Positions 36,851 to 41,051 of a stretch of 64,000 bases of DNA are shown here, piece by piece. The position numbers were made by a program, and so were the translations under genes. The stretch covers positions 248,001-312,000 of the forward strand of contig NZ_JAQTWL010000002.1 in assembly GCF_028689295.1 (NCBI RefSeq), written 5' to 3'. The DNA comes from Rhodoferax sp. (GTDB taxonomy: Bacteria > Pseudomonadota > Gammaproteobacteria > Burkholderiales > Burkholderiaceae_C). Every line of letters begins with the position of its first letter. Position 1 is the stretch's first letter. Under the pieces are notes generated by a model. The model did not search any database and was not told where the DNA came from. It saw nothing but the letters and a program-made list of their open reading frames with translations.

Positions 36851-37461
36851 GTACCGCTGTTGCCAACCCCTACCCACCCGTCAAAATCGGCATCGTTTCG
36901 GTCAGCGACCGCGCCTCAGCCGGCATCTACGTTGACAAAGGCCTGCCCGCGCTGCAAGACTGGCTCAGCCGCGCTTTAAAGAACCCGCTGCAGTTCGAAC
37001 CGCGCCTGATCCCTGACGAGCAGGCCGCTATTCAAGCAGCGCTGATCGAGCTGGTGGACGCCGGCTGCGCCCTGGTGCTCACCACCGGCGGCACCGGCCC
37101 GGCGCTGCGCGACGTCACCCCTGAAGCCACACTGGCCGTGGCGCACAAGGAAATGCCTGGCTTTGGCGAGCAGATGCGCCAGATCAGCCTGAACTTTGTG
37201 CCCACCGCGATTCTGTCGCGCCAGGTGGCGGTGATCCGCAACCAGACCCTCATCATCAACCTGCCGGGCCAGCCCAAGTCGATCGCCGAAACGCTGGAAG
37301 GCCTGCGCGACGCTGACGGCAAATCAGTGGTGCCCGGCATCTTTGCCGCCGTGCCCTATTGCATCGACCTGATCGGCGGGCCGTACCTGGAAGCCGATGA
37401 AGCGGTGTGCAAGGCCTGGCGCCCCAAAACTGCGGTCCGGAGTTTTCCCACTACACCATAG
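36847..37461 (+). CDS. mog: Molybdopterin adenylyltransferase
   Basis: 204 residues, MogA/MoaB family. It adenylylates molybdopterin, the step before molybdate insertion. Motifs: IGIVSVSDRASAGIY, LVLTTGGTGPALRDVTPEAT with the substrate-binding loop, and INLPGQPKSIAETL. A plausible need is supplying Mo cofactor to NarG. The start overlaps darP by 4 bases. The 3' end overlaps the convergent restriction enzyme gene by 11 bases. Confidence 0.94.
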   Translation: MSTAVANPYPPVKIGIVSVSDRASAGIYVDKGLPALQDWLSRALKNPLQFEPRLIPDEQAAIQAALIELVDAGCALVLTTGGTGPALRDVTPEATLAVAHKEMPGFGEQMRQISLNFVPTAILSRQVAVIRNQTLIINLPGQPKSIAETLEGLRDADGKSVVPGIFAAVPYCIDLIGGPYLEADEAVCKAWRPKTAVRSFPTTP

Positions 37462-40400
37462 CGTCTGATCGGGCCAGGTTCAGCGCCAGCAGGCGCTTGA
37501 GGATTTCGTCGTCGGGCATGGCTGGCGTGTAGTCTGTCCAGCCGTAAGCAGCGGCCACGGCCTGATCAAGTTGCTGGTGCGCCATGCTGAGCCAGGCTGG
37601 TCTGGCGTTGTAGAGATTGGTGAGCGTGCGTTTTTGCAGGGCCTTGAGGTCAGCCTCGGTGATGCCGGGCTTGGGCTCGATGCGGTCGGGGTAAGGCGAC
37701 TTGTCCAGCCCCAGCGGTGTGACTTCGGGCACCTTGTGCGTCCACTCGGGCGGGTTCAGCCAGTGCTCCCTAAGATCGTTGAGTTTCTTGGCGGCGTTGG
37801 CGATTTGGATGGCCGCTTGACGCAAGTTTTGTGCGCCTTGACCCGGCAGGGCTGGCTCGGACGCCGGGGGCTCATACGCTTCGCTTTTTAAAATCGCCCC
37901 CGACATCCGAGCCACCCCCGCCTTTAACGGTTGTTCTTGCAACTGCGCGGGGATCAGGGCACCGGTTTCCAGTAACTCGGTTTGCTGGTGGGCAGTGTCG
38001 GCGGGCGTGAGGCCTGCGGGGAAGGGGAAGGTTTCGAAGCAGGATTTGGCGTTGTAGGTTGGGTCGTTGCCCACACCGTGCATGGACGCTTGCGCCAGTG
38101 ACCAGGCTTCGTGAGTGCGTGAACTCAGGATGCCGAAAGTCGTGTCGTCTGCTCGGGCAACAATGAGTAACCTTGAATCTGGTGAAACCGATACTGGCAA
38201 CCAGGAAAAATATCGGTACTTTGCAACTCGCGGTGTCACCACATACCGAATAAGACCTTTAACGCCTTGTCGCATATCCGCGCCATTGCGACCAAATCGC
38301 CACCAATTTTCTCTGCGACCACGATCATTGTTCAATTCGCGCTCAGGTTTTACATGCAAAGTGACATAGCTGAATGGCTCTTGATACAAGGCCGCATCAA
38401 CCAGTGCCGTACTAACGCCATAGTCAATAACCCAATGGTCTTTTGGCCTGTCTGACATGTCTGATCCATTGCGCCAAGGCAATAACACCTCAGCATTTGA
38501 CCGGCCGTGTGGGTTGGGCAAACTCAACCATTGCCTAGCCAAAGCGCCGTCAATCTCAAAAGGACCAGATTTTTCGGCTCCTTTGAAGGCTGCTGCACCG
38601 TTTGCGGGCAGCGGATGCGCTTCCGTTAAATTCAAACCGTTACCACCCGTCAGGTCAGCGTGGATAGCGGCAACAGTTTGCCCGTTCAACATGACATTCT
38701 GACAACCCGATTTTTCAGGAACGGCAGCAGCAAAACAGATCAGCGACACGCGTACTGCAGCACCCTCGTTGACCCAGGACTCATCGCTCCAGGCATCCAC
38801 TATTTTGGCAGTCGCGCAAATGGCCGTCAGCACGGCGCGGTTCGAACCAGCACGTATTGACTGCGTTGCGACCAGTCCGGCAGCCTCCAGCCCATCGCTT
38901 TCAATCGCTATCCTCGCCTTGTCGAACCAGTAACACACCAGATCAGCGCCACCCGGCACACGACCCGAAAACACGGTGTCGAGCGCCTTGAAGTAATCGT
39001 CACCCAATTCCCGGCGCTTCTTGCTGCCACCCAAAAACGGCGGGTTGCCGATCACCACATTGGCTTTGGGCCAGATGGCTTCCCGAACGCCCGCAGAACC
39101 GGGGTCAGAGCCCGAGTTTTGCTGCGCAAAATCGGGATCCGACCCCACTTCTGCTGCACCTGGTTCTTCCACATCAACGGGCGATCCGACGTCCAGGGGC
39201 GTGGGTGGGGCGGATGTCGGGGGCGATTTTAAAAAGCGAAGCGTATGAGCCCCCGGCGTCTGCCCTGCCCGCGGCCCGGGTTCAGGGCAGAGCGTTTCAA
39301 CGGTCGCTGTTGAATTGGGGTCAGAGCCCGAGTTTCTCTTCGCGAAATCGGGATCCGACCCCAATTCAACGGGAAAAGTAAGCAGCGCATCGCGGCACTC
39401 GATGTGGTCCAGCGGCTCCAGCACCGGGTTGGTCTTGAACTCGTAGCCGTGCGCCATGCGCCACTGCAGTTCGCCAATCCAGACCGTGACGCGGGCCAGT
39501 TCGGCGGCGTATTCGTTGAGCTCGATGCCCAGCACATTGTGCGGGCCGGTGACCAGATCGGCCTCGCGGTCGAGCCCGCACATGGCGGCATCCAAATGGC
39601 TTTTGTGCTCGATGTCCTTGAGCGCCTTGAGGCCCATGAACAAAAAGTTGCCACTGCCACACGCCGGATCCAGCACGCGGTAGTTCCTGAGGTCTTCCAG
39701 CCACAAGACGAACCTGGCTTTGCCGCCTTGATAGTGCTTGTCGCCCTTCTTTTTGCTCTTGCTCAGCAGCGCCCGGATGTCCTGCGCCACCAGTTCCCAT
39801 TTTTGAAGTAACGGACGGCTCAGCACGGGCTCGATGATGCGCAAAATGGTGGCCGGGTCGGTGTAATGGGCGCCGAGCTGGCTGCGTTTGGCGGGGTCCA
39901 GGCCGCGCTCGAACAGCGTGCCGAAGATCGACACATCGATGGCCGACCAGTTCAGCGCGGCGGCATTGCGCAGTTCGGTCACTTCCATGATGCTCAAGGC
40001 GGGCACCTTGACTTTTTTGAACAGACCGCCGTTGAACCAGGGAATGTCGTCGTTGCCGTACAGGCCGCCGTCGCACATGGCAATGAACAGGTTGGTCAGG
40101 CCCCGGGTGAGTTTGTCGGCGGTGAGCTGCTTGTTGTTGACCAGGCCCTCGAACATGCGCGCGGGCAGCAGGCCCACGTCTTCGGCAAAAAAACAGAACA
40201 GGCACTGGGTCAGGAAGTGGGCAACTTCGTCGGGGTCGTTGTCACGCTTGCGCAGGCCATCGGCCAGCGTGGCAAAACTTCTGGCAGCGGCTTCGGTGAT
40301 GTCGCGGCTGGTTTTCTTGGGGCGAAAGCTCTCGGGGTCGGTCCACAGGCGGCGCAGCAGCGCCTGCTTGGCGGGCTGGTCCAGCTCGCCAAGCAACACG

Positions 40401-40774
40401 GTGTGGACTTCGGACGGGTGGCCGTTGAACTGGGTGTGGATGCGAATGGTGAGGCGGTCGCACACCACCAGCAGCGGCGGATTGGAAAGCGCCAGGCTGT
40501 AGGTGAGCAGCTGCTTGAGCGCGGTGTCCAGGCTCTTGCCGGGAGCCTTGTTTTCCCAGGCGAAATGGTTGCGCATGAACACGTCGGCATAACCCCGCGC
40601 CTCGCCCAGCACCAGCGTGTCCTGCTCAAAAATGTAGTCGCCCGAGCTGCCTGGCTTGGGCACACCCAGCAACTGGCACAGATCCATGAAGTGCGCCTGC
40701 GCGCCCTGGCGCTCGTTGAGCTCAAAGGCCGGGCCACCGGGGCCCCAGTTGGCGATGAAGTCTTGGGGGCTCAT
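37451..40774 (-). CDS. MmeI-like single-chain restriction-modification enzyme (type IIL)
   Basis: 1107 residues. The N-terminal nuclease motif D-x9-E-x-K (D64, E74, K76) matches the MmeI pattern. The methyltransferase has motif I DPACGSGNF (369-377) and motif IV NPPF (577-580), followed by target-recognition and C-terminal regions. One polypeptide would cut DNA and methylate adenine. The stretch between motifs I and IV is unusually long: residues about 469-558 contain repeat-derived sequence (GSDPDFAKRNSGSDP and GSDPDFAQQNSGSDP) encoded by palindromic DNA repeats. A further repeat copy lies at residues 956-972. MmeI itself is 919 residues. The frame is unbroken. It follows the BrnT/antitoxin genes in one operon. 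The ATG at 40774 was chosen over a TTG one codon earlier. Confidence 0.88.
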   Translation of the reverse strand: MSPQDFIANWGPGGPAFELNERQGAQAHFMDLCQLLGVPKPGSSGDYIFEQDTLVLGEARGYADVFMRNHFAWENKAPGKSLDTALKQLLTYSLALSNPPLLVVCDRLTIRIHTQFNGHPSEVHTVLLGELDQPAKQALLRRLWTDPESFRPKKTSRDITEAAARSFATLADGLRKRDNDPDEVAHFLTQCLFCFFAEDVGLLPARMFEGLVNNKQLTADKLTRGLTNLFIAMCDGGLYGNDDIPWFNGGLFKKVKVPALSIMEVTELRNAAALNWSAIDVSIFGTLFERGLDPAKRSQLGAHYTDPATILRIIEPVLSRPLLQKWELVAQDIRALLSKSKKKGDKHYQGGKARFVLWLEDLRNYRVLDPACGSGNFLFMGLKALKDIEHKSHLDAAMCGLDREADLVTGPHNVLGIELNEYAAELARVTVWIGELQWRMAHGYEFKTNPVLEPLDHIECRDALLTFPVELGSDPDFAKRNSGSDPNSTATVETLCPEPGPRAGQTPGAHTLRFLKSPPTSAPPTPLDVGSPVDVEEPGAAEVGSDPDFAQQNSGSDPGSAGVREAIWPKANVVIGNPPFLGGSKKRRELGDDYFKALDTVFSGRVPGGADLVCYWFDKARIAIESDGLEAAGLVATQSIRAGSNRAVLTAICATAKIVDAWSDESWVNEGAAVRVSLICFAAAVPEKSGCQNVMLNGQTVAAIHADLTGGNGLNLTEAHPLPANGAAAFKGAEKSGPFEIDGALARQWLSLPNPHGRSNAEVLLPWRNGSDMSDRPKDHWVIDYGVSTALVDAALYQEPFSYVTLHVKPERELNNDRGRRENWWRFGRNGADMRQGVKGLIRYVVTPRVAKYRYFSWLPVSVSPDSRLLIVARADDTTFGILSSRTHEAWSLAQASMHGVGNDPTYNAKSCFETFPFPAGLTPADTAHQQTELLETGALIPAQLQEQPLKAGVARMSGAILKSEAYEPPASEPALPGQGAQNLRQAAIQIANAAKKLNDLREHWLNPPEWTHKVPEVTPLGLDKSPYPDRIEPKPGITEADLKALQKRTLTNLYNARPAWLSMAHQQLDQAVAAAYGWTDYTPAMPDDEILKRLLALNLARSDAMV
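37861..37909. repeat. REP-like repeat B, inverted copy inside the restriction gene
   Basis: This 49-base segment is the exact reverse complement of 39211-39259, with weaker similarity beyond. It has GGGGGC and GCCCCC arms around a variable centre. It lies in frame and encodes residues about 956-972. Confidence 0.9.
39101..39146. repeat. REP-like repeat A, copy 1
   Basis: A 46-base imperfect palindrome, GGGGTCAGAGCCCGA to TCGGGATCCGACCCC. It is identical to 39317-39362 except for about four bases in the loop. It lies in frame in the restriction gene and encodes a GSDPDF-type peptide. Confidence 0.9.
39211..39259. repeat. REP-like repeat B, direct copy
   Basis: The 49-base partner of the inverted copy at 37861-37909, about 1.3 kb away in the same gene. 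The arms GGGGGC and GCCCCC can form a hairpin. It encodes residues about 506-522. Confidence 0.9.
39309..39370. repeat. REP-like repeat A, copy 2 with extended arms
   Basis: A 62-base palindrome. The outer arms GTTGAATTGGGGTC and GACCCCAATTCAAC are perfect inverted copies over 14 bp, and the inside matches repeat A copy 1. It encodes residues about 469-489 of the restriction enzyme. Confidence 0.92.
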
Positions 40775-40784
40775 CAAACCGCGT

Positions 40785-41051
40785 TCATTGGGTATGCAAT
40801 TTTTCCTGTAGCCAGACCTTGATCAGTGACTGGTAAGGCACGTCCCTGGAATTGGCCGCCGTCTTGATGCCGTCCAGCAAATGCTGCGGTAACCTCAAGG
40901 AGATGGTTTTTGTGGTGGGTTTGAGATTGGGCAGGCTGACGTTTTTGGCTGTCGTCCAATCGACAAATTCGGCGGAGTCATGCGCCTCCCAAAACTCTTG
41001 CTCTTGAGATTCGTTGGCAAATTGCGGCAGGGGTTTAAGTTTTTTGTTCAT
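40785..41051 (-). CDS. CopG-type antitoxin (BrnA-like)
   Basis: 88 residues. The C-terminal half is a ribbon-helix-helix DNA-binding domain (TKTISLRLPQHLLDGIKTAA then DVPYQSLIKVWL), typical of CopG-family antitoxins paired with BrnT toxins. The N-terminal part (FANESQEQEFWEAHDS) should bind the toxin. Its start overlaps the toxin gene end by 17 bases. It ends 10 bases before the restriction enzyme start. It probably neutralises the toxin and represses the operon. Confidence 0.88.
   Translation of the reverse strand: MNKKLKPLPQFANESQEQEFWEAHDSAEFVDWTTAKNVSLPNLKPTTKTISLRLPQHLLDGIKTAANSRDVPYQSLIKVWLQEKLHTQ

Follow-up and report, generated by a model that had tools for sequence, protein, structure and literature searches.

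The gene for an MmeI-like type IIG restriction-modification enzyme in a Rhodoferax sp. contains four palindromic repeats, belonging to two families designated here A and B, which lie in two linkers of the encoded protein. These two linkers are insertion hot spots in the gene family, and homologous genes carry repeats of different families at the same places. We consider it likely that selfish palindromes of several kinds are tolerated in two flexible linkers of an apparently intact type IIG enzyme. Palindromic elements of several kinds would move in these genomes; in-frame insertions falling in the two flexible linkers would have survived, and other insertions would have been lost. The linker peptides would be by-products under weak constraint at the protein level, and either template switching during replication or selection acting on the strand of the element itself might keep the palindromes paired at the DNA level.

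Palindromic repeats in an MmeI-like gene

The window, meaning the whole stretch of 64,000 nucleotides that was analysed, is part of a 3.49-Mb Rhodoferax sp. genome in 72 contigs (G000). The gene occupies positions 37454-40774 on the minus strand, with an ATG at 40774 and a stop codon at 37451-37453, and encodes a product of 1107 amino acids. Domains MmeI_N, MmeI_hel and MmeI_Mtase are all above their Pfam cut-offs in one chain; MmeI_TRD reaches 19.6 bits against a cut-off of 27, and homologues align across that part. With PADLOC, two stretches of the product match REase_MTase_IIG (E=6e-254), and residues 2-468 make up the better one. Methyltransferase motifs I (DPACGSGNF, residues 369-377; 39644-39670, minus strand) and IV (NPPF, residues 577-580; 39035-39046, minus strand) are invariant in alignments A3 (9 rows) and A5 (22 rows), as are D64, E74 and K76, which we take to be the nuclease residues of the MmeI-like enzyme. 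Judged by these residues, the catalytic motifs are intact; the gene appears to be so too, and the enzyme may have retained its activity. A CopG-family antitoxin gene (Pfam CopG_antitoxin; 40785-41051, minus strand) is located directly upstream of the restriction gene.

As originally predicted, the four repeats are in frame, and all are read through, at residues 469-489, 506-522, 543-558 and 956-972. The first copy of A (39309-39370) is an inverted repeat with arms at 39309-39334 and 39345-39370 and encodes GSDPDFAKRNSGSDP at residues 469-489. The second (39096-39151), encoding GSDPDFAQQNSGSDP, is a direct copy, 88% identical over 56 nt to 39312-39367 and equally palindromic, of which 39101-39146 corresponds to residues 543-558. 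Family B is a long-stem palindrome whose first copy (39193-39278), on the plus strand and therefore antisense to the gene, encodes GAHTLRFLKSPPTSAPP at residues 506-522, and whose second copy, B2 (37842-37927), on the minus strand and sense to the gene, encodes MSGAILKSEAYEPPASEP at residues 956-972. They score 92.4 and 99.8 bits, respectively, with the B covariance model R1, to whose 11-copy training set both belong. Within them, the 49 bases at 39211-39259 are the exact reverse complement of 37861-37909, in agreement with the previous observation; the exact match actually extends to 50 bases and is embedded in 63 nt at 95% identity. In our judgement, chance cannot account for such an exact inverted copy in a 3.3-kb gene.

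Three of the repeats lie between methyltransferase motifs I and IV, as originally noted, and are shortly ahead of the latter; B2, the fourth, is found past the target recognition domain. The first three fill linker 1 (residues 466-564, from RDALL to motif IV; 39083-39379, minus strand), where pLDDT values are below 50 at residues 470-561. B2 is in linker 2 (residues about 944-985; 37820-37945, minus strand), which connects the target recognition and C-terminal parts and has pLDDT values below 50 at residues 947-982. AlphaFold2 models both linkers as coil (residues 471-560 and 951-980), at a block pLDDT of 25-37. The model fits with disorder of the linkers without proving it, because it is weak overall (mean pLDDT 61, pTM 0.34) and residues 818-917, outside the linkers, are equally poor.

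Homologues of the enzyme were found in 18 of 399 genomes of the order at E≤1e-100 and, with a limit of E≤1e-80, in 57 of 399 from the family, G000 being included in both counts, and the contig scan comprised the best 80 loci of 224 relatives. The 155 retrieved proteins were reduced to 130 by dropping contained copies, and the query was added; 122 span linker 1 and 115 have clean ends. The distance from RDALL to NPPF is 26 residues in 29 of the 115, at most 31 in 47, at least 40 in 57 and at least 60 in 33, and it is 120 residues in the query. This agrees with the original prediction that the repeat-derived linker is absent from repeat-free homologues, which have 26 residues at this place and not, as it might have been, a linker equal to the query's 120. 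Linker 2 of the query also exceeds that of many homologues in length. Among 56 full-length rows, inserts of at least 8 amino acids concentrate in linker 1 (18+1) and linker 2 (20+1), as compared with 7 at each of two other places and 1-2 at each of five more.

Recurrence of repeats in the two linkers

Peptides of several repeat types occur in linker 1 of the 115 homologues. Seven patterns were defined, of which A matched 14 rows, B 18, GEG/GRG 18 and RPEPVEG 16, with VIASEARQS (3), KGG (2) and ERAGVRG (1) being rarer; in all, 56 rows match at least one pattern and 13 match at least two. These patterns were composed after viewing the sequences, and some matches are short and weak and possibly due to chance, such as PLSGEG in L076 and L242 and AAPVEA in L266, L269 and L273. 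Presumably, the five types other than A and B are translations of common bacterial repeats; among the seven, copies elsewhere within one genome were demonstrated for A and B only. Another 12 rows of at least 40 residues match no pattern, and in one of these, L072, the covariance model detects a palindrome of type B (L148). At the DNA level, linker 1 contains at least five kinds of palindromes: A, B and the CCCTCTCCCGC, CCCCCTTTGTC and CGTTCGCCCTGAGCG types.

A count of inverted repeats that is independent of the patterns (arms of at least 15 bp with at most one mismatch, spacer of 3-40 bases, two rows with N runs being dropped) retrieved 19 in linker 1, 5 in linker 2, one in the core and one upstream of the start codon, from summed lengths over the rows of 17.1 kb for linker 1, 18.1 kb for linker 2 and 338.2 kb for the rest (core plus upstream). 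Lowering the required arm length to 12 bp weakens the contrast, the counts then being 33, 14, 58 and 8, respectively. When mapped on a tree built from the N-terminal part, the four commoner types (A, B, GEG and RPEPVEG) require 10, 10, 13 and 13 changes, against 13.5, 17.0, 17.0 and 15.2 with shuffled labels. Carriers are thus only mildly clustered, which suggests many gains and losses, or transfers. In three homologues (L274, L294 and L300) the gene consists of two ORFs in different frames, split at linker 1 at query residues 467|568, 468|559 and 457|565.

We compared the gene with its near orthologues L224, L249 and L255. In the N- and C-terminal parts, dN/dS is 0.08-0.19 against the three orthologues, whereas it is 0.33, 0.83 and 0.34 in linker 1 and 1.2, 0.65 and 0.95 in linker 2, respectively, L224 being the least reliable in the latter because of masked bases. 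The linker windows show 0.10-0.23 synonymous differences per site, except for 0.53 against L249, where the insert differs; elsewhere, values are 0.25-0.33 for residues 1-400, 0.10-0.19 for residues 400-470 and 0.49-1.06 for windows 610 to 890. Synonymous divergence of the linkers is thus below the N-terminal average, which is unexpected under free drift.

These values bear on whether the insertions were domesticated, that is, whether longer linkers tune the reach, dimerisation or specificity of the enzyme and insertion was favoured at the two sites. Different repeats hit the same two sites recurrently, and the linker 1 ratios against two of the three orthologues (0.33 and 0.34) make protein constraint possible. 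Nevertheless, 29 of 115 relatives do with a short linker, linker 2 evolves with ratios of 0.65-1.2, and A-like repeats have also entered UvrA, polymerase I and LipB, so we regard domestication as improbable. Tolerance of selfish palindromes in flexible linkers remains our preferred explanation, and would be the cause of the hot spots.

The segment that would determine specificity (38077-39037, residues about 580-900) is mosaic: L224 and L249 are alike there and different from the query, and L255 differs from about codon 580. Nucleotide identity to the query drops at about codon 580 (L255) or 640 (L224 and L249) and recovers near 900. From these alignments, a mosaic middle with conserved flanks indicates that the specificity block is swapped between alleles, with both repeat-bearing linkers being retained. 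We also considered a cassette exchange with its breakpoints on the repeats, which was rejected; the borders, at about 580 or 640 and 900, fall between the linkers, and the repeats are at residues 469-558 and 956-972.

The A and B repeat families

The genome contains a single Y1_Tnp gene, for a RAYT-like transposase (contig C28, 83062-83388), and inverted repeats of the TTGGGGTCAGATTCCAATT type flank it on either side. Family A begins with TTGGGGTCAGAG and has only the head TTGGGGTCAGA in common with these flanking repeats, the downstream part being different. Likewise, inverted GGGGTCAGAT repeats are found on both sides of 6 of 20 other Y1 loci. The commonest relative of A, with a GGGGTCAGAGCACGT head, is a dispersed REP with dozens of copies over many contigs of G000; two of the 19 loci of this type examined sit in an ORF passing a rough codon-composition test, one near each ORF end. 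Several of the GGGGTCAGAGCACGT-head copies in G000 are paired, about 55 bases apart. Family A is a REP-type element, which was probably spread by a RAYT-type transposase. In the same genome, in-frame A-like copies are found in the genes for UvrA (L015), LipB (L003), DNA polymerase I (L006), between its two exonuclease domains, and a lysine/ornithine aminomutase (L013), also between two domains, indicating that the habit is not confined to the MmeI-like gene.

Looking for RAYT transposases, as had been suggested, gives A a possible link to such an enzyme, through the single Y1 gene and the head shared with its flanking repeats. For B no link is seen: in 21 Y1 loci from 14 genomes, taken with about 1.5 kb on each side, nothing reached E≤0.1, and the two weaker matches had E-values of 0.64 and 0.78. 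Other candidates for B were also rejected. In a cmscan of 10 loci against the known RNAs of Rfam, none of the 32 matches reached the gathering score; 31 of them are to microRNA models, which we take as chance fits to a hairpin. A blastn search for plasmid copies with the 86 bases of B2 gave no match.

Elements of family B consist of a 27-bp stem, which varies between copies yet stays paired, below a conserved loop of about 24 nt; the median stem length over the family is 29 bp, with 32 being the ceiling of the script. At E≤1e-3, R1 has hits in 48 of the 399 family genomes; among 399 genomes sampled from the order, 5 have hits at E≤1e-4, all five in the family of Rhodoferax, on which the model was trained, so that distant members may escape it. 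Most of the listed places were fetched, and the 69 sources yielded 93 elements after removing opposite-strand matches. In the 81 of these that fit the loop pattern, a selection that in part produces the conserved loop edges, clustering at 75% separates the stem arms into 37 groups, and the median identity between pairs of them is 50%.

The pairing of these stems covaries. In eight orthologues, 98.6% of the cells of the linker 2 stem are paired, versus 88.1% when shuffled, and 11 pairs are altered on both sides, as opposed to 4.2 when shuffled and 1-3 when slid. With symmetric scoring, the B stems contain 2311 Watson-Crick pairs and, on the strand with the conserved loop, 201 G.T, 17 A.C and 54 other mismatches. 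Although R1 itself favours G.T over A.C, the excess persists (78 versus 3) in the 22 elements of at least 80 bits, which are far above the threshold and include related copies. For this reason, pairing appears to be judged on a single strand, that of the conserved loop.

Covariation this strong in orthologues, together with the low-energy folds predicted for the linker RNA (calculated without a shuffled control), is what would be expected if the palindromes were functional hairpins in the messenger, regulating the restriction enzyme and with selection on the mRNA keeping them paired. The strand bias of the mismatches argues against this: the seven B copies in linker 1 run antisense to the messenger, and their loop strand has 24 G.T but no A.C mismatches, which would therefore be read as A.C in the mRNA; this favours an origin in the element's own strand. 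Moreover, B is found in either orientation, both in intergenic DNA and inside other genes, and an inverted repeat with 12-bp arms is present in linker 1 of only 28 of the 122 genes spanning it. Regulation through mRNA hairpins is thus very unlikely.

MmeI-type genes contain 18 of the 93 B elements, an observed count and not a tested enrichment: 14 are in genes of the query's kind, one in L164/L223, one in L151/L221 and two in L176/L220, with L140 and L162 being left out because their similarity to the query is through the B peptide alone. L164/L223 is a second MmeI gene of G000, with all five MmeI domains and one B element. Outside this group, B is clearly within the protein in valyl-tRNA synthetase (two genomes), UvrA and CobB; copies near ORF ends (CoA transferase, SpoU, NUDIX, ABC) may be outside the true gene, and several ORFs are without a Pfam match. 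In L192 and L197, the valyl-tRNA synthetase elements are each just past the tRNA-synt_1 stretch. The three best copies in G000 had prompted the idea of a repeat exclusive to restriction genes; the family-wide search ruled it out by revealing intergenic copies as well as those in valyl-tRNA synthetase, UvrA and CobB. Even so, tolerance alone may be insufficient to account for the 18 elements in MmeI-type genes.

Neighbouring B elements also have a preferred arrangement, with 22 of 24 pairs in the fetched stretches being in the (-,+) orientation. The orientation in the query is therefore a habit of the family and not peculiar to this gene, and it bears on the inversion of the 1.3-kb segment between the two copies that had been predicted. 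Recombination between the inverted copies would flip the segment, turning the enzyme off or changing it, and the exact 50-base match does flank a region extending from motif IV as far as the target recognition domain; besides, the distant MmeI-type gene L176/L220, only 32% identical, carries B, A and B in frame, with its B copies oriented around the target recognition domain as in the query. Nevertheless, the three frames of the opposite strand of the segment are interrupted by 8, 13 and 14 stops and offer no useful open reading frame, so that a flip could only destroy the ORF, and the five other MmeI-type copies with both B elements (L043, L074, L076, L134 and L176) all show the same orientation. 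The predicted inversion is consequently not supported, and an invertible switch is extremely unlikely. In one of these five genes, L134 (1067-1618; G424:C106), the MmeI-like ORF is of 417 amino acids, the two B copies are only 380 bases apart and the gene lacks the segment that begins just past motif IV and extends almost to the end of the target recognition part.

Another (-,+) pair, in L144 (254-1586), has its elements 1161 bases apart; between them lie genes for a GNAT acetyltransferase and for the toxin-antitoxin pair Phd/YefM-CcdB. In a further reading, to which we give little credence, B would be a mobile palindrome not described before, its loop being conserved and its stem rewritten from site to site, and its (-,+) pairs could bracket the enclosed DNA and help to exchange it; restriction genes would be preferred targets, and the repeats would take part in changing specificity. 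If true, the DNA bracketed by B pairs would be the MmeI-type specificity block here, and the CcdB/Phd plus acetyltransferase block in L144.

Relation to known systems

Insertion of selfish palindromes in tolerant linkers has its closest parallels in intragenic GTAG/CGTC REPs and in Rickettsia palindromic elements. As described in the main text of PMC3733652, GTAG/CGTC REPs also form in-frame palindromes within genes, many of them for DNA synthesis or repair and including uvrA and DNA polymerase I. We count as further likenesses the predominance of head-to-head dimers, the G.T pairs in their stems and the occurrence of different REPs at about one and the same recB site in two Xanthomonas species (PMC3733652). 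In contrast, their stems are of 5-13 bp (PMC3733652), whereas in B a stem that is both long and variable carries a conserved loop of about 24 nt, and here two linkers of one gene family gather several repeat types. The word "restriction" is absent from the main text of PMC3733652, whose target ORFs are in Additional file 3. REPs are mobilized by RAYT/TnpA-REP transposases (PMC3733652, PMC8266576), and the TTGGGGTCAGA head links A, and not B, to repeats flanking such a gene.

Rickettsia palindromic elements are likewise described as in-frame insertions, apparently tolerated, in a large number of unrelated genes (PMC10969869, PMC3733652, PMC6649704), and the repeats of the query agree with this definition of a palindrome inserted in frame in protein genes. 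Compared by description, they belong to another lineage, and the repeats studied here recur at fixed linkers of one enzyme family.

The sole PDB match of the query is MmeI (type IIL, 5hr4), which has in common with it the domain order, motif I (residues 360-370 in MmeI) and motif IV (481-484) (PMC4833311). The alignment breaks between MmeI residues 442 and 474, leaving about 31 residues (443-473) at the position of linker 1; the position of linker 2 in MmeI is based on a non-significant stretch of the alignment. Template switching, which makes or keeps hairpins (PMC8794818), would maintain the arms paired during drift, as observed in B, for which it is a candidate only. Family B, whose stem turns over inside coding DNA but stays paired, is a tractable case for distinguishing template switching from selection.

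We found no report of palindromic repeats in restriction-modification genes in the open-licence literature searched, which is weak evidence of absence; nor did we find a description of the hot spot formed by two linkers of type IIG enzymes, of the number of repeat types that share it or of family B. For restriction biology, the repeats mark two sites where type IIG enzymes appear to accept large insertions. One of these linkers ranges between 26 and about 150 residues in the enzyme family, being lengthened by several kinds of repeats, and thus provides a natural series in which to examine how repeat DNA becomes protein, and at what cost. In all, the MmeI-like gene family is a clear case of repeat DNA becoming protein, and constitutes a strong new example, although not a categorically new one, of the habit already known from intragenic REPs and Rickettsia palindromic elements.
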